This document shows, in pieces, positions 1,870-31,758 of a stretch of 36,760 nucleotides of DNA. The number at the start of each line of letters is the position of its first letter. Positions within the stretch are counted from its first letter, which is position 1. The DNA is taken from the NCBI GenBank assembly GCA_030706785.1, contig JAUZNW010000014.1, forward strand, positions 1 through 36,760. The letters run 5' to 3'. A model generated the notes under the pieces. The model was given only the letters and a program-made list of their open reading frames with translations, made no database searches and was not told the origin of the DNA. The DNA is from Bacteroidota bacterium. Lineage in GTDB: Bacteria; Bacteroidota; Bacteroidia; Bacteroidales; VadinHA17. A program made the translations under genes and the position numbers.

Positions 1870-3672
1870 TTATTTGTATAAAGCTCCGTATGTCAGACAT
1901 GCACGGTAATCGGAACCTTCTGCATCCATGCCGAAGGCACTCCAGGCACTTGGTCTGAAGATTCCCTTTTCTTCAAGATTATGCATACATACAGGTATCC
2001 TGAGCATTGAAGCAAGAGTTACAAGGTCAGCCCCGATATGTCCGTAGCTTGAGGCAGAGTGGTTGGCGCCCCAGTTGGCCATAACGGAGTATACATCGGT
2101 GAAGGCGCCTTTATCGGTGAGCCTGGGTGCGAACCATGTTGTCGGCCAGCCCGGATCTGTCCTGTCAGTAAGTATTTTGTTCATCTTCCCCGGGAGCCCG
2201 ACTGTCCATCCTTCCGCCAGCTGCAGAACAGGACCTATTCCCTTAACAAGGTTTACCCTTGAGATTGTAATGGGCATCACATCCATTGTTGTGAACTGAG
2301 ATGAAAAACCGCCTCCCCTGAAATAGCCCGTATTGGCAGGCGACCACTGGGTGGCTTTCAGGCAATCAGTCGCATCCTTTGATGTGATCTCCCAGAAGGG
2401 CTTTATGCAGGCTTCTCCCTTCTTCCTTTGTTTGCCCGAAAAATCAAGAGCTGATGCCCCTGAATTGATCAGGTGAATGATCCCGTTCTCAGCAAGCCCT
2501 GCCGGTTTGCTTCCTGTAACCCTTTTAATAGCGGCAGCACTCCAGAAAGTGCGGATATCCGAAAACATCTGGGCAGTATTTGTAAGCAGATAGCCGAACA
2601 GCATTGGCACTCCGTTCATGGCATCATTTTCAGTTGCCACAAGATAAGGCGGCCTTATTCCGTTCCAGTCAAAAGAAGAGCAAAGAATTGCTTCAAGAAA
2701 GTCACCATTGGGCATATGGTCAGTCCATTGACGCTGTCCCTGGAAGCCTGACAGGATTGCATTATGTCCGAGTGCCTCCTCGCCGAAACCGAGTTTTTTA
2801 AGCTTTGGATTCCCCACCATCAGGTCTCGTGCGATGAGAGCCATCTTTACTACTATCTCCCATTCCTTGTCTTTCCTCGCCCGGCTTGACGGCTTTGCAT
2901 TATAGTCTTTCCCTTCCTTGCAGTATTTCTTTGTCCAGGTAAACGCCTTCCTTAATTCTTCCTTATCATAAATCTCCTCATTAAGCCTTCTTGTAAACTC
3001 GCTCATATCTATGTATTCATTCCTCATTCCAAGATATTCCTGAAAGAAGTCCTCCCTTACTATCGATCCTGCTATTCCCATCGATACAGAGCCCATCGAC
3101 AGATATGATTTGCCTTTCATGAATGCCAGGGCAAGTCCTGCCCTGATGAATCTGAGGATCTTTTCACTGACATCTTCAGGGATATTCAGATCACCGACAT
3201 CCTGGACATCCCGCCCGTATATGCCGAATGCCGGTAATCCTTTCATTGTGTGGCCTGCAAGAGCTGCTGCAAGATAAACAGCCCCCGGTCGTTCAGTGCC
3301 ATTAAAGCCCCAGATTGCTTTTGGGGTGAAGGGGTCCATATCAATTGTTTCACTGCCATAACACCAGCAGGGAGTAACCGTGAGACTGACAGCAACACCG
3401 GACTTTCTGAATTTCTCGGCACATGCTGCAGCTTCAGCCACTCCTCCTATGCAGGTATCTGAAATAATGCACTCCACTGACTTTCCGTCGGGATATTTCA
3501 GATTCTTGGATATAAGCTTTGCTGCTGCCTTTGCCATTCCCATTGTTTGATCTTCAAGAGATTCCCTGACACCTCTCTCGCGACCGTCAATAACGGGACG
3601 AATGCCGATCCTGGGGAAATCGCCTATAACCGTCTGGTAATTATGGTTTATCTTAAGTTCACTATCAGCCAT
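1870..3672 (-). CDS. fucI: L-fucose isomerase
   Basis: Converts L-fucose to L-fuculose (and D-arabinose to D-ribulose), the first step of cytoplasmic fucose catabolism; the family is Mn2+-dependent. The 600 residues match E. coli FucI (591) along the whole length: [20 protein letters not shown] near 21-40, [15 protein letters not shown] near 100-114, and [10 protein letters not shown]. The expected metal ligands are present: Glu348 in [10 protein letters not shown], Asp372 in FSDIRTFW and His538 in NWGANH. The ATG at 3672 leaves a short N-terminal extension of about 13 residues relative to E. coli. It is the first gene of a minus-strand operon that continues into the DUF5362-like gene and fucK. 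A TATATTTG box lies 42 bp upstream of the start codon. No regulator gene is visible next to it. Confidence 0.97.
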
Positions 3673-20345: not shown

Positions 20346-22949
20346 ATGGAAGATCAGGAACTTGAAATAGATAAGCCTGAAGGAGTTCCGCAAGGTCCTG
20401 TGGCCCTGCATTCAGTGACAGCCCTTTCGGGGATGTACCAGGACTGGTTCCTCGACTACGCATCTTATGTGATACTTGAACGTGCAGTACCTCACCTTGA
20501 TGATGGTCTGAAGCCGGTTCAGAGGCGTATTCTTCATTCCATGAAGAGAATGGACGATGGCCGCTTCAACAAAGTGGCCAATATAATCGGCCATACAATG
20601 CAGTTTCACCCGCATGGCGACACCTCGATTGGTGATGCACTCGTACAGCTTGGACAGAAGGATCTCCTTATTGATACGCAGGGCAACTGGGGGAATATAC
20701 TCACAGGAGACGGGGCTGCTGCTCCCAGGTACATCGAGGCGCGGCTTTCAAAGTTAGCGCACGATGTGGTGTTCAATCCGAAAACAACAGAATGGAAGTC
20801 GTCGTACGACGGCAGGAACAAGGAACCGGTGACGTTGCCGGTGAAGTTCCCGCTTCTCCTTGCAATGGGTGTTGAAGGAATTGCAGTTGGACTTGCTTCG
20901 AAAATATTGCCTCATAATTTCAATGAGATAATAGATGCCTCGATCGATCACCTCCTCGGTAAGGATTTTGTCCTTTATCCCGATTTCCCGACGGGAGGCA
21001 TGATAGATGTATCAAAATACAATGACGGGCAGCGGGGTGGAATTGTCAAGGTACGGGCCAGGATAGAGAAGATCGATAAAAAAGCCCTGGTCATTACAGA
21101 GATACCATATGGCAAAACAACATCATCGCTGATAGAATCGATTATCAAGGCCAATGAGAAAGGCAAGATAAAGATCAGAAAGATCGATGACAACACTTCT
21201 GCCAATGTTGAGATATTAATTCAGCTCATGCCGGGAGTTTCACCCGACAAGACCATCGATGCACTTTATGCACTTACAGATTGCGAATACTCAATCTCAC
21301 CAAATACCTGTGTTATAGCCGGTAACAAGCCCTCTTTCATGGGGGTAAGCGATATACTGAAGCATTCTGTCGCCAATACAGTTAAGCTCCTGAAGACCGA
21401 GCTGGAAATACGGCAGAATGAGCTGAGGGATGAGTGGCATCTGTCAACGCTTGAGAAGATATTCATCGAGGAGAGGATCTACCGGGATATCGAAACATGC
21501 AAAACCTGGGAATCGGTGATAGAAACGATCGCTAAAGGTCTTAAGCCATTCAGAAATAGATTATTGCGCGACATTACAAGGGAAGACATCATTCAGCTCA
21601 CTGAGATTAAGATCAAAAGGATATCGGCATATGATTCGGCAAAAGCTGATGATCATATAAAGGAAATTGAAGTTGAGCTGGAGGAGGTAAAAAATCATCT
21701 CCGGAACATTATACCTTTCACTATCAATTACTTCAAGCAAATTAAGAAAAAATACGGCAAAGGAAAGGAAAGGAAGACTGAAATAAGATCATTTGACACC
21801 ATACTTGCCACAAAAGTCGTGGCAAATAATGCCAAGCTTTTTATCAATTATAAGGAAGGTTTTATCGGTACCGGGCTGAAAAAGGACGAGTTTGTCTGCG
21901 ATTGCTCCGATATTGATGATATCATTGTTATAAGAAAGGATGGAGGATACCTTATCACCAAAGTTGCGGAAAAAGTTTTTGTCGGCACCGATATAATCTA
22001 TGCCCAGGTATTCCTGAAGAATGACGAGCGGACAATATACAATATTGTATACCAGGATGGAAGGGATGGTCCTTTACTGGTGAAGAGATGCGCAATAAGC
22101 GGACTGACCCGTGACAAGGAATATAACCTCACCAGGGGCACCCAGGGATCCAGAATTATCTACTTCAGCGCAAATCCAAACGGGGAAGCCGAGGTGATCA
22201 GGATCCACCACAAGCCGAAGGCCAGGATGAAGAAATTGATTTTTGAGTTCGATTTCGGCACGCTTGCAATAAAGGGAAAGTCATCAATGGGAAATATCCT
22301 GACAAAAAATGCAGTGCACAAGATAACATTGAAGGAGAAGGGTCTGTCAACGCTTGGCGGGAGAAAGATATGGTTCGACGACGCAGTCTTCAGGCTGAAT
22401 GTCGACGGACGGGGTCTCTACCTTGGAGAATTCAGCGCTGACGACAAGATACTTGTCATCACGAAGAACGGATTTTTCAGGCTTACAGGATTTGACCTTT
22501 CAAATCATTTCGAAGACAATATCCTCCTTATAGAAAAATATCACTCCGGAAAAGTCTATTCGGCCATTTACTGGGATGCAGAGCAGAAGTATTATTATGT
22601 GAAAAGATTCACAATAGAAGAATCGGAAAAGCCCCTTTGTTTCATAAATGAGAATCCGGAGTCAAAACTGATAAGCCTTACCGAGGTTGAATACCCGCGG
22701 TTTGAGATCAGTTTCGGAGGCAAGAACAAGGGGCGGGAAAATGAAATAATCGAGGTGGCTGAATTCATAGGGGTAAAGAGCTATAAAGCAAAGGGTAAAA
22801 GGCTCAGCAGCTATATGGTGGAAAATATCCAGGAGATTGACCCTGTTGTGAAAAAGGAATCAGCTGCAGCAAAAGAACAGGATGAAGATGAGTCACATCA
22901 GCCTCCTGAACTGCACGATGACTCGGCACAGATGAAGCTCGAGCTGTAA
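20346..22949 (+). CDS. parC: DNA topoisomerase IV subunit A
   Basis: DNA-cleaving subunit of topoisomerase IV. Of 867 residues, the breakage domain has YASYVILERAVPHLDDGLKP near 38-57, HPHGDTSIGDALVQLG at 88-103, and the catalytic tyrosine Tyr129 in APRYIEARL. A coiled-coil tower region and a beta-propeller-like C-terminal domain follow. The GyrA-box QRRGGxG is not seen, which supports ParC. The residue aligned with E. coli ParC Ser80 is Thr93, and that aligned with Glu84 is Asp97, by motif position. The tail after about residue 835 is acidic and probably disordered (QDEDESHQPPELHDD). The stop TAA overlaps the aroK ATG by one base. Confidence 0.93.
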   Translation: MEDQELEIDKPEGVPQGPVALHSVTALSGMYQDWFLDYASYVILERAVPHLDDGLKPVQRRILHSMKRMDDGRFNKVANIIGHTMQFHPHGDTSIGDALVQLGQKDLLIDTQGNWGNILTGDGAAAPRYIEARLSKLAHDVVFNPKTTEWKSSYDGRNKEPVTLPVKFPLLLAMGVEGIAVGLASKILPHNFNEIIDASIDHLLGKDFVLYPDFPTGGMIDVSKYNDGQRGGIVKVRARIEKIDKKALVITEIPYGKTTSSLIESIIKANEKGKIKIRKIDDNTSANVEILIQLMPGVSPDKTIDALYALTDCEYSISPNTCVIAGNKPSFMGVSDILKHSVANTVKLLKTELEIRQNELRDEWHLSTLEKIFIEERIYRDIETCKTWESVIETIAKGLKPFRNRLLRDITREDIIQLTEIKIKRISAYDSAKADDHIKEIEVELEEVKNHLRNIIPFTINYFKQIKKKYGKGKERKTEIRSFDTILATKVVANNAKLFINYKEGFIGTGLKKDEFVCDCSDIDDIIVIRKDGGYLITKVAEKVFVGTDIIYAQVFLKNDERTIYNIVYQDGRDGPLLVKRCAISGLTRDKEYNLTRGTQGSRIIYFSANPNGEAEVIRIHHKPKARMKKLIFEFDFGTLAIKGKSSMGNILTKNAVHKITLKEKGLSTLGGRKIWFDDAVFRLNVDGRGLYLGEFSADDKILVITKNGFFRLTGFDLSNHFEDNILLIEKYHSGKVYSAIYWDAEQKYYYVKRFTIEESEKPLCFINENPESKLISLTEVEYPRFEISFGGKNKGRENEIIEVAEFIGVKSYKAKGKRLSSYMVENIQEIDPVVKKESAAAKEQDEDESHQPPELHDDSAQMKLEL

Positions 22950-23467
22950 TGAACAGGCGAACAAAAATATTCCTGATCGGATTCATGGGGAGCGGAAAAT
23001 CCACGACAGGAAGAAAGCTTGCCTCATGCCTCAGCTGGTCATTTATTGATCTTGATAAAAGAATTGAAGAAAAGGCCGGGATGAAAATTCCTGATATTTT
23101 TTCAGAAAGAGGTGAATCCTGGTTCAGAGGAATTGAATCTGAAGCTCTCAGAAATGTGAATTCCGAAACAAAAACTGTGATTTCAACCGGGGGCGGCACC
23201 CCCTGTTTTGGGAACAACATGGAGTTCATGCTTGAGAACGGGTTAACTATATACCTCAGGCTTACACCTGAACAGCTCGAAAAGCGGCTTGGAGGGTCAT
23301 CAACAATCAGACCGCTTTTAACAGATGTGAACAGAGACGATCTGGGGAAATACATACAGAATAAGCTGGGGGAGAGAGAAAGATGGTATCAGAGGGCTGA
23401 CATCACCGTTGACGGATATGAAACTGATATTCCCGGATTGTGTTCGCTTGTTAGAAAATGGATATGA
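22949..23467 (+). CDS. aroK: Shikimate kinase
   Basis: Phosphorylates shikimate at the 3-position using ATP, in aromatic amino acid synthesis. The 172 residues contain the P-loop GFMGSGKSTTG (11-21), the shikimate-binding acidic pair in FIDLDKRIE (Asp34 and Asp36), the segment FSERGESWFRGIE, and STGGGTPC. Length is typical. Its ATG overlaps the parC stop (TAATG), so translational coupling to parC is likely. A large hairpin follows the stop. Confidence 0.96.
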   Translation: MNRRTKIFLIGFMGSGKSTTGRKLASCLSWSFIDLDKRIEEKAGMKIPDIFSERGESWFRGIESEALRNVNSETKTVISTGGGTPCFGNNMEFMLENGLTIYLRLTPEQLEKRLGGSSTIRPLLTDVNRDDLGKYIQNKLGERERWYQRADITVDGYETDIPGLCSLVRKWI

Positions 23468-23481
23468 AAATAAATCGGCGT

Positions 23482-23552
23482 TTGCTTGTTGCTGGTTAGT
23501 TTTTGATAAGTTATATATATATTTTCAAAAACAAGCAACCAGCAACAAGCAA
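23482..23552. repeat. Large hairpin with a 16-bp perfect stem between aroK and the HEAT-like gene
   Basis: TTGCTTGTTGCTGGTT (23482-23497) and AACCAGCAACAAGCAA (23537-23552) are perfect inverted repeats. An inner GTTTTTGA/TCAAAAAC pair extends the stem around an A/T loop. It begins 15 bp after the aroK stop and could act as a bidirectional terminator. The repeated GCAAC units (AGCAACAAGCAACTAGCAAC) suggest a dispersed repeat. Confidence 0.75.
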
Positions 23553-25418: not shown

Positions 25419-28400
25419 ATGGCGCCAGTTACTACCAGAGATGAGGATCTCAATCCATTTCCAGGGCTGAGGCCGTTTTCATCAGGCGAGAGCGAGTATT
25501 TCTTCGGACGTGAAGCAGAAAGCAAGGAGGTTACCTCAAGGGCATCAAGAAACAGATTTCTTGCGATCATAGGGGTTTCAGGAAGCGGCAAAACGTCGCT
25601 TTTACAGGGCGGACTTGTGCCGGGGATAAAGAATTTATCCCTGAACGGTCCTCCTGCATGGGTAATCTGCAATATGACTCCAGGGAATGATCCGTTTTCT
25701 TCTCTTGCAGATTCATTCGCAGAGAGTCTTTATAGCGAGGACCAGAGGGAAAAAGCAAGGAATGAGATCCCGAGGCTGCTCAGAAAAGGACAGGATGGCA
25801 TTGATGAGGCTATAGAAGCTGCAATTTCAAAATTTCCCAGGAAAATACTCCTTATCATTGACCAGTTTGAAGAATTGTTCAGATATGGATCACCCGGACG
25901 GGGAAAAGGTACAGGGGACGAAACAGCAGCATTTATTAACCTTCTGACACATACTGTTACAAAAGGTAATCAGGACTTCCATCTCGTAGTTGCGATCAGG
26001 TCAGACCTGCTTTCCGAATGTGCCCGCTACAGGAGCCTTACTGCTCTTCTTAACGACAGCAACTACTTTATTTCGGGAATGCACAAAGAAAGCATCAGGA
26101 GTGCCATCGAAGGCCCGCTAAAACGCAAGGGCGTCAGGATTGATCCTGAACTGGTCGAACTGCTGGTGAGTGAGATAAATGAACGAACAAACCAGCTTCC
26201 GGTCCTGCAACACGTACTTATGCGTCTCTGGACGCGGTGGAAGGAAATGAATGAGACTGCCCGTCCGGTTGGTTTCAGCGACTTCAATGCGATAGGGACC
26301 GTAAAGGACTCGGTCTCCCGTGATGCGGATGAGATTTACAGAAGCCTGAGCAACGAGGGCAAGGATATATGTGAGAAGCTTTTTAAAGCCATAACAGGTA
26401 AAGGATCTGATAATAAAGGCATTCGTTATCCATCCGACATCAGATCCCTGAAATTGATAATAAGGTGCAGTGAGGAAGAACTGATTTCAGTCATCGAAAA
26501 ATTCCGCCATCCTTCCATCTCGTTCCTGACACCCTATTCCGGACCTCTGGATGATAATTCAATAATTGATCTGTCGCACGAGAGCCTTATCCCGCTATGG
26601 GACCGGCTGAAAAAGTGGGTTGATGAGGAGACTTCTTCAGTACAGATGTATCTTGAGCTATCGGAATCATCTGCATTGTATCAGCAGGGCAGGAAAGGCC
26701 TTCTTAAGTCGCCCGATCTGGAACTGGCGGTCAAATGGCGTGAGGAAAACAAGCCGACTGTGTGGTGGGCGCAAAAATATAATCCAGCCTGGGAGAGAGC
26801 CATGGTGTATCTCAGGTCCAGCGAGAAAAAGTTTCTTGAGGGGGAAGAAAGAAAAGCCAGGATCAACAGATGGAGGTTAAGAAGGGTAAGGACCTTTGCA
26901 TCAGTATTTGCAGGGGTTGCAGTTCTTGCCGGCCTGACAATGTTCGGAGCCTTTATTTCAAAATTCAATTCCGACAGCCGGCGAAAAGCAGCTGAAGTTC
27001 AGAAAGATATAATAGCAGCCCAGAAAACGGTCGCAGAGGAGTATGCAACGGCAGCTCTTAAGAAATCTATTGAAGCTGATTCAAATGTCGTTACCGCTGC
27101 AATGAGGGAAGCACACGAAAGATCGATGAGGGAAAGTGCCGAAATGCGGTTCCTGACAGCTGAAAAGAATGCGCATGAAGCAAGGAAAATTTCAGATTCG
27201 GTAATGCAAAACAATCTGTTGGCTGTTGAACAGAAGAACGAAGCACAGAGGATGAGGATGATCTCCGTCGCAAAATCAATGTCGCTCCGTTCGCTCCAGT
27301 CAGAGGGACAAAAGGACCTTCAGGCCCTTCTTGCTTACCAGGCTTACCTTTTCAACAAAAAGAGCAGGGGATTTTACAACGATGCGGATATTTATATGGG
27401 ATTATATACCCTTGCAAAGGATTACGGTAATGAAAAATACAGGACCTGCGCAGGACATGAAGGTCAGATTTTGAGCATGGCTTTTGTCCCGGGCAGGAAT
27501 GAATTTTACACTTCCGGATCCGACGGAAAGGTTATTAAATGGGATCCTGAGGATAAAGCACAGAGCTTCAAGGTTGTCTATTCGAATTCTGATATTATCG
27601 ATGTGCTTGCAGTAAGCCCTAAAGCCGACTGGCTGGCGTGCGGGACAGAGGGAGCTGTAATTAAAATGATTCCTATTGCGGGAAATGCAAGTGAATATGA
27701 ACTGAAAGGGCATACGGCAAAGATAAAGTCACTGATCTTCTCTTTTGACGGCAGTTATCTTTATTCTGCAGGGCTTGACGGGAGAGTGCTTAAATGGGAC
27801 CTTAAGGCAAAGGCCTCAACAAACCTTGCTTCCGGAATGATGCAGATCAATTCGATAGACATATCGTCGAACGGTAAATATATTGCCGGTTTAGGTGACC
27901 AGGGGAAAGCGCTGATATGGAATCCTGAGCAGCCGGCTGAAGCATTCAGGCTGGAATCAGCTGAAAGAACTATAAGGAGCATAAGGTTTAAGCCTGACGA
28001 AGACCAGCTGGCAGTCGGATATGATGACGGAAAGGTGGAAATATGGGATATCAGTACAAGGAAGAAGATTACGGAATTCATGGCTCATTCGGGCGAAGTC
28101 AATGATATCAGGTTCAATTTAAAGCTCCCCCAGATAGCTACCTCCGGAAATGACGGGAAACTGAAGCTCTGGGATCTGCAGGATACCTCGAATCCACCTG
28201 TAACCTTTAATGACAATGGCGGTATGGTTATCGCCTTCGGGTTCAGCCCCGACGGTCAGATGATCGCATCTGCCACTGTTGAAAGCAAACCCCTGATTAT
28301 TCAGCGTCCGACACTTGCTGATTCTTTTGTTGCAGACGGATGTGCCTATGTAACACGGAATTTCACGCCTGAAGAATGGACAGCTTATGTCGGGAAGGAT

Positions 28401-28463
28401 ATAACCTATGAAAAAACCTGTCCGGGTGCAGACTTGAAAATCAAAATCAGGGAGATAAGGTGA
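25419..28463 (+). CDS. nSTAND1 NTPase with transmembrane segment and C-terminal WD40 propeller
   Basis: Predicted signal-transduction or sensing ATPase of 1014 residues. The N-terminus has the nSTAND1 signature NPFPGLRPF and YFFGRE at 12-31, Walker A GVSGSGKTS (52-60), and Walker B ILLIIDQFEEL (143-153). A winged-helix-like region follows to about 400. A hydrophobic segment at about 490-510 (ASVFAGVAVLAGLTMFGAFI) and a charged coiled-coil at about 515-625 link it to about seven WD40 blades from 675 to 965 (GSDGKVIKWD, AGLDGRVLKWD, GYDDGKVEIWD, GNDGKLKLWD). The C-terminal tail RNFTPEEWTAYVGKDITYEKTCP is typical of bacterial STAND-WD40 proteins. A single membrane pass would separate the NTPase and propeller, but sidedness is not clear. 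It is 13 bp after the HEAT-like gene. Confidence 0.9.
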   Translation: MAPVTTRDEDLNPFPGLRPFSSGESEYFFGREAESKEVTSRASRNRFLAIIGVSGSGKTSLLQGGLVPGIKNLSLNGPPAWVICNMTPGNDPFSSLADSFAESLYSEDQREKARNEIPRLLRKGQDGIDEAIEAAISKFPRKILLIIDQFEELFRYGSPGRGKGTGDETAAFINLLTHTVTKGNQDFHLVVAIRSDLLSECARYRSLTALLNDSNYFISGMHKESIRSAIEGPLKRKGVRIDPELVELLVSEINERTNQLPVLQHVLMRLWTRWKEMNETARPVGFSDFNAIGTVKDSVSRDADEIYRSLSNEGKDICEKLFKAITGKGSDNKGIRYPSDIRSLKLIIRCSEEELISVIEKFRHPSISFLTPYSGPLDDNSIIDLSHESLIPLWDRLKKWVDEETSSVQMYLELSESSALYQQGRKGLLKSPDLELAVKWREENKPTVWWAQKYNPAWERAMVYLRSSEKKFLEGEERKARINRWRLRRVRTFASVFAGVAVLAGLTMFGAFISKFNSDSRRKAAEVQKDIIAAQKTVAEEYATAALKKSIEADSNVVTAAMREAHERSMRESAEMRFLTAEKNAHEARKISDSVMQNNLLAVEQKNEAQRMRMISVAKSMSLRSLQSEGQKDLQALLAYQAYLFNKKSRGFYNDADIYMGLYTLAKDYGNEKYRTCAGHEGQILSMAFVPGRNEFYTSGSDGKVIKWDPEDKAQSFKVVYSNSDIIDVLAVSPKADWLACGTEGAVIKMIPIAGNASEYELKGHTAKIKSLIFSFDGSYLYSAGLDGRVLKWDLKAKASTNLASGMMQINSIDISSNGKYIAGLGDQGKALIWNPEQPAEAFRLESAERTIRSIRFKPDEDQLAVGYDDGKVEIWDISTRKKITEFMAHSGEVNDIRFNLKLPQIATSGNDGKLKLWDLQDTSNPPVTFNDNGGMVIAFGFSPDGQMIASATVESKPLIIQRPTLADSFVADGCAYVTRNFTPEEWTAYVGKDITYEKTCPGADLKIKIREIR

Positions 28464-28525: not shown

Positions 28526-28683
28526 CCACACGTACTCACCACCTTTTATCCCCCTCTCTTCCCGCAAGGCGGGATTACCTTACTTCGTTCGTCAAAATTC
28601 TTGAGGAGGGGGAAATAATTAATAATCAGGCCATTACTCCCCTTATTTGCTACAGCTGAGAAGGGGTTGGGGGATAAGTACAT
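28526..28683. repeat. Intergenic C/G-run dyad repeat (copy 5) containing a block shared with 31588-31627
   Basis: The left half has CACGTACTCA, TATCCCCCTC and TCTTCCCGCAAGGCGGGA. The right half has GAAGGGGTTGGGGGATAAGT, so the ends are inverted. The block at about 28558-28594, read on the minus strand, closely matches the plus strand near 31588-31627 (GAACGAAGT or AAACGAAGT, then CTTTGCGGGAAGA-like sequence). This fills much of the 386-bp gap between the STAND-WD40 gene and gpmI. I see no gene in that gap. Confidence 0.7.
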
Positions 28684-28769
28684 GTAACCCTATGCGGACC
28701 TGTGTAACTTCCATTGCTGTAAATGGACTTCTTTAATCCTTACATTAATCCCTGTATCCAAAAAATGCC

Positions 28770-28777: not shown

Positions 28778-28849
28778 AGGCCGCAAATTTTATTTCGCTG
28801 AACAAGGGCATGTTATTCTATGTTTAACAATGATCGCAATAACTCAAAC

Positions 28850-30370
28850 ATGAAAAACCGGAAAACTCTGTTGATGATCCTTGATGGCTGGGGAATAGGT
28901 GACGGATCTGTCGCTGATGTCATAAGCCAGGTACCAACTCCAAATATGACCTCATTTAAACAAAAGTATCCGAATAACCGGCTTCATGCCTCAGGTGAGG
29001 ATGTTGGACTGCCTGACGGACAAATGGGTAACTCTGAGGTAGGGCATCTGAACATCGGCGCAGGCCGGATAATTTACCAGGACCTTGTAAAGATCAACCT
29101 GGAATGCAAAACAGGCCAGATAAAGCAGAATAAAGTCCTGACTGATGCATTTTCATATGCCAGAGATAACGGCAAGCAGGTACATTTCTTCGGCCTGCTC
29201 TCCGACGGAGGGGTTCATTCACTCGACAAGCATCTCTATACACTCTGCGATATGACGGAGGATTACGGCCTGAAAAAAGTATTTATCCACGGGTTCGGTG
29301 ACGGAAGGGATACGGATCCCAGAAGCGGGGTGATATATATGCGGAATCTTCTTGACCATCTGAAGGTATCGAACGGGAAGGTTGCCTCATTCGTGGGCAG
29401 GTATTATGCAATGGACAGAGATAAAAGATGGGAGAGGATCAAGGAGGCTTATGATCTGATTGTCTCTGGAAAGGGTAATCCCACCACAGACATAATAAGG
29501 GCAATGCAGGCCTCATACAATAATGAAGTTACCGATGAATTCATGAAACCGATCGTTGTGGTTGATGAAAACGGCAATCCTGTCGGAACCCTGAAGGAGG
29601 GTGACGTTGTGGTCTATTTTAACTTCAGGAACGACAGGGCAAAGGAACTCACTATTGTCCTTACCCAGAAGGATATGCCTGAGTTCAGTATGAAAACGAT
29701 CCCGCTGTACTATTGTACTATGACACCATATGATGCAACTTTCCAGGGACTTCATATAATTTATCCAAAAGAGAATGCAGATAATACAATAGGTGAAGTA
29801 CTGTCGAATGCAGGTAAAACACAGTTAAGGATTGCGGAAACTGAGAAATATGCTCATGTAACATTCTTCTTTTCAGGCGGGCGTGAGGAAGTATTTAAGA
29901 ATGAAGACAGGATACTAATACCATCCCCCAAGGTTCCGACTTATGACCTTCAGCCTGAGATGAGCGCATATGGAGTAAAGGATGCGGTGATCAAGGCGAT
30001 AAACACTGAAAAATACGATTTCATCTGTCTTAATTTTGCCAACGGTGATATGGTGGGTCATACGGGTGTATATGAGGCTATTAAGAAAGCAGTTGCAACT
30101 GTTGACGAATGTGCAGGAGCTGTTGCAAATGCAGCCAGGAGCAAGGGCTATGATGTGCTTATCATTGCAGATCACGGCAATGCTGATAAAGCACTGAATG
30201 AGGATGGAACACCAAACACCGCTCATTCATTGAATCCTGTACCATGTATACTCCTGACTGATGATTACAAATCGATAGAGGAGGGCATCCTTGCTGATGT
30301 TGCTCCGACTCTTCTGACAATAATGGGTATTGATATCCCGAAGGAGATGACCGGGAAAGTATTAGTGTAA
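28850..30370 (+). CDS. gpmI: 2,3-bisphosphoglycerate-independent phosphoglycerate mutase
   Basis: Interconverts 3- and 2-phosphoglycerate in glycolysis, using two Mn2+ ions and a phosphoserine. From the ATG at 28850 the protein is 506 residues. It shows LMILDGWG with metal-ligand Asp12, GNSEVGH with nucleophile Ser62, [37 protein letters not shown], and the C-terminal metal sites [12 protein letters not shown] and IADHGNADK. It matches Bacteroides GpmI nearly end to end as I remember it. An upstream in-frame ATG at 28820 would add ten residues ([10 protein letters not shown]). The internal start is preferred because it gives the family N-terminus and puts the serine at the standard position 62. 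Confidence 0.96.
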
Positions 30371-30442
30371 CCCCCAAGCAGCTTCTTAGGGGGCTAATTG
30401 ATTTTCGATTTTAAAATCCCCCTTCAGGGGGGCTGGGGGGTG
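30371..30442. repeat. Intergenic C/G-run dyad repeat (copy 6), likely terminator of gpmI
   Basis: It starts directly after the gpmI TAA. CCCCCAAG pairs with CTTAGGGGG (30371-30393) with one bulge, and CCCCCTTCAGGGGGG (30418-30432) forms a second hairpin. The outer ACCCCCAAGC and GCTGGGGGGT also pair with one mismatch. This gives the same outer-plus-inner design as copy 2. Confidence 0.75.
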
Positions 30443-31044: not shown

Positions 31045-31188
31045 AGGATTCACATGTACTCACTCCCTTCCTTCGCTCCGCTTAGGATGCACCCTTTCTA
31101 CTTGCGTACTAATCTTCAACCACATCTTCTGGTAAAGCTAAAACTGACTCAGGAAATTCCTTTTTTTAACTTAATTTACTCTTGTCTT

Positions 31189-31255
31189 AAAGACAGGGAG
31201 ATCCTTCATTTCGCCAATCCCTCGCAGGCTCAGGATCGGCTCATTCAGGATGACA
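31189..31255 (-). repeat. Inverted copy of the TGTCATCC...GGATCTCCCTG repeat
   Basis: Read on the minus strand it starts TGTCATCCTGAATGAGCC and ends GGATCTCCCTGTCTTT. The ends match the plus-strand copy at 31376-31424, while the middle (GATCCTGAGCCTGCGAGGG) differs. The two copies bracket the 25-bp inverted repeat. Confidence 0.6.
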
Positions 31256-31272
31256 ATATCAGGTGGAAATAA

Positions 31273-31356
31273 ATGAAGGGGAAGAAGCGGCGGGCCAATA
31301 AACTGAGTCAATCAAATTATAAATCATGCAATGGCCCGCCGCTTCTTCCCCTTCAT
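31273..31356. repeat. Perfect 25-bp inverted repeat with 34-nt loop
   Basis: The 25 bases at 31273-31297 (starting ATGAAGGGGAAGAAGCGG) are exactly complementary to 31332-31356 (ending CGCTTCTTCCCCTTCAT). This is the innermost and best preserved pair of the nested palindrome. The stem would be very stable in RNA or extruded DNA. Confidence 0.9.
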
Positions 31357-31375
31357 AATTTAAAAAAAATTAAAG

Positions 31376-31424
31376 TGTCATCCCGATCCCGATTTATCGG
31401 GAGAGGGATCTCCCTGGCTTTGCA
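31376..31424 (+). repeat. Dispersed-type repeat TGTCATCC...GGATCTCCCTGGCTTT
   Basis: It begins TGTCATCCCGATCCCG and includes the small palindrome CCCGATTTATCGGG. It ends GGATCTCCCTGGCTTT. An inverted copy with a different middle lies at 31189-31255. Sequences starting TGTCATCC and ending GGATCTC are, from memory, common dispersed intergenic repeats in Bacteroidetes. Confidence 0.6.
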
Positions 31425-31728
31425 GAAGTTAAAGTTATACGATCAGAAAATGGATTTTTCCATTATCAAATAGTTCTACTAAGCCTTAATGAATCATGAA
31501 AATAGATGTGTATAAAGATTAGTACTTGCGAAAAGAGGAGGAATTACTTAATAACCAAATTTATACGCACCTTTTCTGCGACAGCTTGACAAACGAAGTG
31601 AGGAAATTCCGCTTTGCGGGAAGAGAAGGGGCTGGGGGATGAGTACGTGGAAATCTCAGGGTCTCTAAAGTGAAATGCTACAAATAGGGGCTGATCATAT
31701 ACTGCAAGCATAAAAAAAATCCTGTTAT

Positions 31729-31758
31729 TTTGTTTTTTTAAAAAAACCGGTATCTTTG
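31729..31758 (+). promoter_or_regulatory. Bacteroidetes-type promoter for susC
   Basis: TTTG (31729-31732), an 18-bp spacer, then TATCTTTG (31751-31758) fits the TTTG-N19-TAnnTTTG promoter almost exactly. The susC ATG lies 31 bp after the -7 box. This is the clearest promoter in the window. Confidence 0.65.

Follow-up and report, generated by a model that had tools for sequence, protein, structure and literature searches.

Nearly concentric palindromes upstream of a susC gene: a palindromic Tn5/IS50-type MITE probably inserted into the hairpin of an older repeat

The window of our analysis, a stretch of 36,760 nucleotides from a Bacteroidota bacterium (Bacteroidales, VadinHA17; contig JAUZNW010000014.1), contains a 684-nt spacer between a DUF3109 gene and susC, and both the DUF3109 domain and the TonB-receptor domains of the susC product were confirmed there. 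Six of ten fetched relatives (L090, L091, L093, L094, L095 and L097) likewise possess DUF3109 directly before a susC-type gene, with a DUF3109 that is 66-69% identical. A first-pass annotation had described the spacer as inverted repeats nested around nearly one centre, and every one of its pairs was recovered together with its midpoint (Table 1). The outermost pair lies 36 nt off-centre, as that annotation had stated, because the middle element is placed towards the left end, and not in the centre, of the outer repeat.

The inverted pairs are real and exceed chance expectation. Compared with 500 dinucleotide shuffles, the spacer holds 35 exact inverted 8-mer pairs (shuffled mean 5.5, maximum 19) and a longest exact arm of 25 bp (mean 8.9, maximum 13); three layers share a midpoint, against a shuffled mean of 1.05, and at least one shuffle also reached three. 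Folded as single-stranded DNA the spacer gives -110.4 kcal/mol versus -69.5 (sd 5.1) for 20 shuffles (z -8.0). Rfam yielded no match at the gathering score of any family in the window, and in E-value mode the spacer produced 17 sub-threshold hits only, nearly all of them to microRNA hairpin families. Preservation does fall from the inside outward, as had been noticed at first sight; constraint on hairpin arms fits this inward rise at least as well as age does.

Table 1. Inverted pairs and repeat features of the spacer and of the region before susC (positions of the window)
Feature	Position	Strand	Remarks
25-bp inverted pair	31273-31297/31332-31356		100% identity, midpoint 31314.5
11-bp inverted pair	31245-31255/31376-31386		91%, midpoint 31315.5; contains GGATGACA/TGTCATCC
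22-bp inverted pair	31106-31127/31504-31525		86%, midpoint 31315.5
19-bp inverted pair	31189-31207/31403-31421		89%, midpoint 31305
21-bp inverted pair	31047-31067/31635-31655		76%, midpoint 31351
Outer palindromic repeat, ends CATGTACTCA / TGAGTACGTG	31053..31649	no strand	GTACTCACC-type; split by the insertion
Target duplication, left copy TACTTGCGTA	31099..31108	+	exact 8-bp part TACTTGCG
Middle element, Tn5/IS50-type MITE, 414 bp	31109..31522	no strand	ends, duplication, relatives; no ORF reaches 100 aa
Left terminal inverted repeat CTAATCTTCAACCACATCT	31109..31127	+	IS50-subgroup end consensus, 7/7 conserved positions
Cassette, REP-hairpin-REP	31197-31413		inside the middle element
Left REP-like unit GGAGATCC...AGGATGACA	31197..31255	+	recurs in own genome and relatives
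Cassette core, covariance model R1	31245..31386	both strands	104.6 and 101.2 bits; window sequence is part of the model
Central hairpin, 25-bp perfect arms, 34-nt loop	31273..31356	no strand	covariation over 30 cassettes
Right REP-like unit TGTCATCCCGA...GGATCTCC	31376..31413	-	recurs in own genome and relatives
Right terminal inverted repeat CTAATCTTTATACACATCT	31504..31522	-	7/7 conserved positions
Target duplication, right copy TACTTGCGAA	31523..31532	+	9/10 match to left copy
Presumed susC promoter-like box TATCTTTG	31751..31758	+	about 100 bp beyond outer repeat

The outermost layer belongs to a family of palindromic repeats with further copies in the genome of the window. A search of this genome with the whole spacer gave 33 matches, and the two parts of the outer repeat matched 14 other contigs and one more place in the window. 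Comparison of the copies outlines a palindrome whose ends resemble CATGTACTCACC / GGTGAGTACATG; the end motifs of nine measured copies span 96 (two copies), 138, 156, 173 (four copies) and 243 bp; this count includes the second copy in the window, two copies (L022, L018) permit other spans, and a tenth (L016) gave none. That second copy is insert-free and lies at 28529-28684, between the ORFs 25419-28463 and 28820-30370. Insert-free copies (L017, L022 and L014) have a single loop at the place of insertion, which in L017 reads CTTTCTGCTTCGCAAAGAG. With one whole copy as query, the family was found in 20 of 58 genomes of the genus, including our own; the matches in other genomes cover mostly just 30-60 of the 185 bases of the query. 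A DUF559 nuclease was considered as partner of this repeat and discarded, the outer motif being present in none of 30 fetched DUF559 loci; one copy of our genome outside these loci (C136, L024) runs into a DUF559 gene.

The middle element has terminal inverted repeats of 19 bp each and shows the features of a MITE: it is short and non-coding, has terminal inverted repeats and a target duplication, occurs in multiple copies and shares its ends with an insertion sequence. Its multiple copies are found mainly across the genus, the own genome possessing isolated ends and two long relatives. One of these (C24) is 79% identical over 360 aligned positions and has no recognisable right end; the other (C269, L011) is 235 bp long, with both ends, a 9-bp duplication (8/9 matching) and REP units, yet without the central hairpin. 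Used as a DNA query, the middle element found matches in 11 of 98 relatives, including the own genome, most of them over the REP parts only. Judged from these comparisons, the two layers, the ends and the duplication may be regarded as demonstrated.

The layers recur elsewhere separately, in the own genome as well as in relatives, as a layer-by-layer search revealed. The first-pass proposal that each element had inserted inside the last holds for one of its steps: insertion of the middle into the outer element is supported by matching ends, the target duplication and insert-free outer copies. As a history of this spacer it is not supported further inwards, where the 22-bp pair, the TGTCATCC pair and the 25-bp hairpin belong together as a single composite unit that recurs in the same order in the C24 copy of the own genome and in several relatives. 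The other proposal, a single large palindrome that arose in one event and decayed from the outside, was abandoned, because the parts are separate repeat families. Preservation does drop outward and the outer repeat's two parts are able to pair together, both of which such a palindrome would display; yet the outer repeat, the middle element and the cassette are each found without the others at other places, and a target duplication sits between outer and middle, so that we regard this origin as highly improbable.

The end sequence of the middle element occurs, with at most two mismatches, in 39 of the 58 genus genomes, including our own, whereas its reversed control never exceeded one match per strand in any genome. 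From the window and 139 of 241 loci we obtained 48 distinct elements that possess both ends (up to two mismatches in one and up to four in the other), 112-1025 bp in length. Duplications matching at 77% or more flank 30 of these, 12 exactly, and measure 8 bp once, 9 bp in 16, 10 bp in ten and 11 bp in three cases; the remaining 18 elements have no duplication of this quality and were left out of the target tests. The last 12 bases of the ends are those of the Tn5 mosaic end, which would be expected if they were library adapters contaminating the assemblies. We rejected this as extremely improbable: the ends stand in inverted pairs inside contigs, with target duplications, they differ between genomes and flank shared internal sequence, and their first half is unlike that of the mosaic end. 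At all seven conserved positions, 79 of the 96 ends fit the published consensus of the IS50 subgroup, CW------Y---CA-A--W- (PMC2266710). A genus-wide family of Tn5-type elements thus bounded by IS50-like ends appears well established.

A candidate for the transposase was found in one relative. The Tn5 DNA-binding domain was matched by Pfam search in one of the 58 genomes (G050), where the short contig with the gene terminates in an exact copy of the right end. The 492-aa protein encoded there (L121) matches Pfam Tnp_DNA_bind and DDE_Tnp_1, resembles Tn5 transposase structures at an E-value of 9.7e-26 and has the Y-2-R-3-E-6-K spacing, the published signature of the IS4 family (PMC2266710). The ends of L121 are 1857 bp apart, its left end, CTAATCTTTCATCACATTT, lying 3 nt from a run of N; we consider it a Tn5-homologous candidate transposase with MITE-type ends. 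A protein search revealed one more fragment, damaged, in G023, beside a similar end and a GTGAGTAC motif, and neither the domain search nor the protein search detected a transposase in the own genome. Multi-copy elements are often missing from such assemblies, and this absence is therefore weak evidence.

Some Tn5-ended elements contain genes of another kind. A Y1_Tnp (RAYT-type) gene is present in six of the 48 (L101, L208, L241, L085, L238 and L230), with an internal stop in L085. By eye, additional inverted repeats seem stacked round the Y1_Tnp gene in L208, L241 and L085, and L212 has similar stacked repeats that enclose a REP-hairpin-REP cassette in place of such a gene. Stand-alone nuclease genes were also seen between Tn5-type ends, of GIY-YIG type in L103 and of DUF559 type in L081 and L239.

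Many of the 48 elements have flanks that resemble the halves of short hairpins, for example CCCCTCCTTCAAAAGGAGGGG. The rebuilt 56-nt empty sites of the 30 elements with duplications fold, with RNA parameters, at a mean of -15.6 kcal/mol, whereas 56-mers from their neighbourhood average -7.7 (Wilcoxon p 3.8e-6). Relative to mononucleotide shuffles (-9.4) their mean z is -2.5, with z at or below -1 in 25 of 30 and at or below -2 in 16 of 30 sites. The target site of the window itself folds weakly (-8.2, z -0.5), and the sites of L104, L231 and L236 fold no better than their own shuffles. When the right flanks were swapped among the 30 sites, pairing was 5.87 of 10 positions in the true combinations versus 5.38 in the swapped ones, an excess of 2.4 sd that was surpassed by the best of 2000 swaps (6.10) and is small because the sites share C-rich left and G-rich right sides. 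Across the Tn5-type family the targets nonetheless appear to be mostly palindromic. A preference of this sort is not new in kind, since both Tn5 and an IS4-family element, ISRm22, have been reported to use palindromic targets (PMC1525189). The window also contains an unoccupied short palindrome of a C-run and a G-run, CCCCCTTCAGGGGGG, at 30416-30442, of the kind targeted by Tn5-type elements, and a self-complementary stretch with GCAAC/GTTGC repeats at 23482-23552, downstream of the ORF 22949-23467.

Nesting of the kind seen in the window recurs elsewhere in the genus. Three of the 48 elements (the window, L111 in G017 and L214 in G011) have a GTACTCAC motif no more than 130 nt from one end, compared with none of 143 control windows; outside the 48, the motif was also found nearby in L301 (G037) and L334 (G023). 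L111 has the motif without a target duplication. The clearest parallel is L214, where a cassette-bearing element lies between ATGTACTCACCCC and GGGGGCGAGTACAT, its target is a hairpin and its 9-bp duplication is exact; its assignment to the outer family is by end motifs only, as the search with a whole outer copy did not list it. G011 contains a three-layer nest similar to that of the window.

The innermost layer, a cassette of two inverted REP-like units round a hairpin, is likewise widespread. The covariance model detected it in 41 of the 58 genus genomes, including our own, with up to 56 matches (both strands counted), and in a sample of the phylum it matched the own genome and, weakly, six of 295 others. 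From 63 stretches between inverted cores we retained 51 non-redundant cassettes with a long arm and a fold of -35 kcal/mol or lower. Their arms average 22.6 bp and are perfect in 42, a perfection that is partly circular under this strong-hairpin filter, which leaves spacing and sequence changes unaffected. The loops measure 28-38 nt in 40 cassettes, 3-5 nt in ten and 48 nt in one, and the left spacer between hairpin and core 16-24 nt; the right spacer measures 15-26 nt, apart from a single one of 4 nt. Among 30 aligned cassettes both sides have changed in 20 of the 23 stem pairs. Over the whole structure, double-change cells number 152 versus 39 in shuffled alignments and the covariation score is 0.455 versus 0.163, values that are inflated by related rows; a weaker measure, the number of further pair types, gave 44 versus 40.5, and 26 of 500 shuffles equalled it. 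Cassette geometry and stem covariation can, on this sequence evidence, be taken as demonstrated. Within genomes the arms have a mean similarity of 0.904, compared with 0.713 for the spacers and 0.702 for the loops, and they are more conserved than loop and spacers in all 13 genomes with at least two cassettes.

What maintains the stem can have several explanations. It may be retained for a function, either recognition by a protein or shielding of the element and its neighbours from read-through. It may also be that the arms reflect recognition by a protein or passive upkeep of the palindrome by arm-to-arm copying, two readings that are inseparable here. Alternatively, the cassette could be a structured RNA, such as a transcription attenuator, that is under selection because of what it does to genes nearby, with mobility being secondary. 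The strong covariation of the stem, the conservation of the arms in 13 of 13 genomes and the position of the window's cassette between a gene end and a promoter are all consistent with this idea, yet no Rfam family reached its gathering score, and the element is nearly symmetric, with a model that matches both strands; pairing at the DNA level and at the RNA level is not separable for that very reason, and we consider selection as RNA to be quite unlikely.

The relation of the cassette to the Tn5-type ends was followed in 40 cassettes found by the model, 37 from among the genus matches listed and three from the own genome. In 17 of them a Tn5-like end (at most four mismatches) is found no more than about 170 nt away, ten of these having one on both sides, whereas 23 have none on either side; a few of the 40 are near contig ends, where such an end could be missing. 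Middle elements without cassette exist as well (L113 and L042, with Tn5-type ends present). As cassettes occur with and without these ends, and the ends without cassettes, the cassette is a module that Tn5-type elements can carry but that is present without them too. On the one hand, this could mean that three or more insertions succeeded each other, the outer repeat being entered by a Tn5-type MITE, the MITE by a REPIN-like element, and the latter by a hairpin element. The cassette-free middle elements, the REP units without hairpin in L011 and the 23 cassettes without Tn5-like ends nearby all agree with such a succession. On the other hand, the hairpin is found at a similar spacing between the REP cores in 51 cassettes (an argument that the selection of strong hairpins makes partly circular), L011 is explained equally well by deletion of a palindrome, and no duplication was seen by eye round cassette or hairpin, nor was a hairpin standing by itself noticed among the loci inspected. 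A succession of this length seems somewhat unlikely to us.

Regular partners of the cassette were sought among mobile and nuclease genes. The GIY-YIG nuclease was dismissed in this role, cassette-type REPs being present in two of 30 fetched GIY-YIG loci (L135, L145). In at least four places (G019:C157, G025:C10, G006:C87 and G037:C36) a GIY-YIG domain starts within about 300 nt of a cassette core, with the gene start facing the core and reading away from it; this closeness comes from a comparison of coordinates by eye among the matches listed, and the value for chance, estimated roughly by hand, is about 0.2. RAYT was rejected likewise: Y1_Tnp is matched in 49 of the 58 genomes, and one of 30 fetched Y1_Tnp loci contains a cassette-type REP pair (L309), while the L313 locus has a single core motif. 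Among the open-access literature matches, consisting of listings and some passages, we found no earlier description of the cassette and nothing relevant for its REP-like strings, and a phrase search of the open-access literature for nested MITEs in Bacteroidetes gave no paper.

Neither the outer nor the middle part of the spacer gave a blastn match in any of the ten fetched relatives, and the spacers of the six syntenic ones contain no Tn5-like end at five mismatches or fewer. In L093 the DUF3109 stop is followed directly by a REP-hairpin-REP cassette (2901-3100) that lacks Tn5-like ends, from which it seems that the same spacer was entered independently. In L283 and L292, too, cassettes seem by eye to follow immediately on an upstream reading frame, as though they had entered just past its stop. 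The 8-mer TATCTTTG, which we take to be a promoter-like box, stands about 40 nt before the susC-type start in four of the six syntenic relatives (L091, L093, L095 and L097) and is absent from L090 and L094. Given this presence and its distance from the outer repeat in the window, the insertions seem to have spared the promoter.

Our preferred reading of the locus, to which as a whole we assign a probability of about 0.8, is that a palindrome-favouring, cassette-bearing MITE of IS50 type was cut and pasted into a hairpin of an older repeat. The 414-bp non-coding element would have relied on a transposase supplied in trans. Its point of entry would have been a small hairpin in the left end region of the older, GTACTCACC-type repeat, where a 10-bp target duplication was produced, and it would have carried in its centre the REPIN-like cassette, two inverted REP-like units round a perfect hairpin, of 25 bp here. 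Because the family favours the middles of palindromes and is itself palindromic, nearly concentric nested palindromes would result, so that palindrome preference is the probable cause of the nesting. This is a simple account of near-concentric palindromes: a palindromic element that favours palindrome centres makes Russian dolls. The genus-wide cassette with its covarying 23-bp stem may in addition serve as a concrete case for how REP-like DNA spreads and for how perfect DNA hairpins persist. A more far-reaching conjecture, which we offer tentatively and hold to be unlikely in its entirety, is a mobile element with two engines, in which a palindrome-seeking Tn5-type MITE carries a REPIN-like element of single-strand type. 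Its central stem would be a lineage-specific address recognised by a protein of the host or the element, rewritten by paired changes between lineages and near-uniform within a genome, and the element would nest in the hairpins of other repeats and so build layered palindromes across the genus.

The cassette invites comparison with REPINs or BIMEs, which are hairpin-forming inverted REP doublets moved by RAYT/TnpAREP, with compensatory changes and many copies (PMC3116915). It likewise consists of two inverted REP-like units round a spacer, forms a hairpin, shows compensatory changes and is present in many copies. It differs in having a separate perfect stem of about 23 bp between the REPs and in often sitting inside Tn5-type ends, and the same REP stands beside a RAYT gene in just one of the 30 Y1_Tnp loci. 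The published REP tag is GT[AG]G at the 5' foot of the hairpin (PMC6006769), whereas in 40 cassettes (80 outer sides) GT[AG]G was found at none of the 60 unit ends recognised by pattern, GGAG standing at 35 and other sequences at 25. This lack is not decisive, as the Bacteroidetes genes of subclass 2.6 have atypical flanking structures without the tag (PMC6006769). We class the cassette as REPIN-like, not as a REPIN. TIRYT genes, or TIRtrons, are tyrosine transposase genes between long terminal inverted repeats, some of which share GGGGWSAS while others are mutually unrelated (PMC3733652). The six Tn5-ended elements with a Y1_Tnp gene between inverted repeats are alike in arrangement; unlike TIRtrons, they have IS50-type ends that produce target duplications, a comparison with the published repeats that was made by their description only. 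Porphyromonas gingivalis belongs to the same phylum as the genome of the window. Its MITEs (BrickBuilt, MITE239 and others) are intergenic and modular, with long stem-loops, and one MITE has been reported within a BrickBuilt element (PMC4596501), so that intergenic position, modularity, long stem-loops and the nesting of a MITE in another element are shared with our case. The ends of BrickBuilt differ, resembling those of the IS5 family, and the passages of that account available to us describe no cassette of the window's kind (PMC4596501).

Among known systems the middle element is close to the IS50 subgroup of the IS4 family (Tn5) and its MITE derivatives: the end consensus is shared at seven of seven positions, one relative has a transposase homologous to that of Tn5 between ends of this kind, with YREK spacing, and the duplication is of about one helix turn. 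For the IS50 subgroup, duplications of 8-9 bp and IS lengths of 1350-1550 bp are tabulated (PMC2266710). The duplication of the window, 10 bp with one mismatch, is longer; 17 of the 30 family duplications measure 8-9 bp, and 10-11 bp are common beside them (13/30). The sole whole IS, L121, likewise exceeds the tabulated length at 1857 bp. Furthermore, our family leans to hairpin targets, and many of its copies have a structured cassette. Insertion into palindromic repeats is a habit shared with the IS elements that enter REP palindromes, namely ISRm22 (IS4 family), IS621 and its relatives (IS110 family) and IS1397 (PMC1525189). In contrast to these, the family of the window hits several dissimilar palindromes, including those of another repeat family, and the inserted element is in our case itself a non-coding palindrome.
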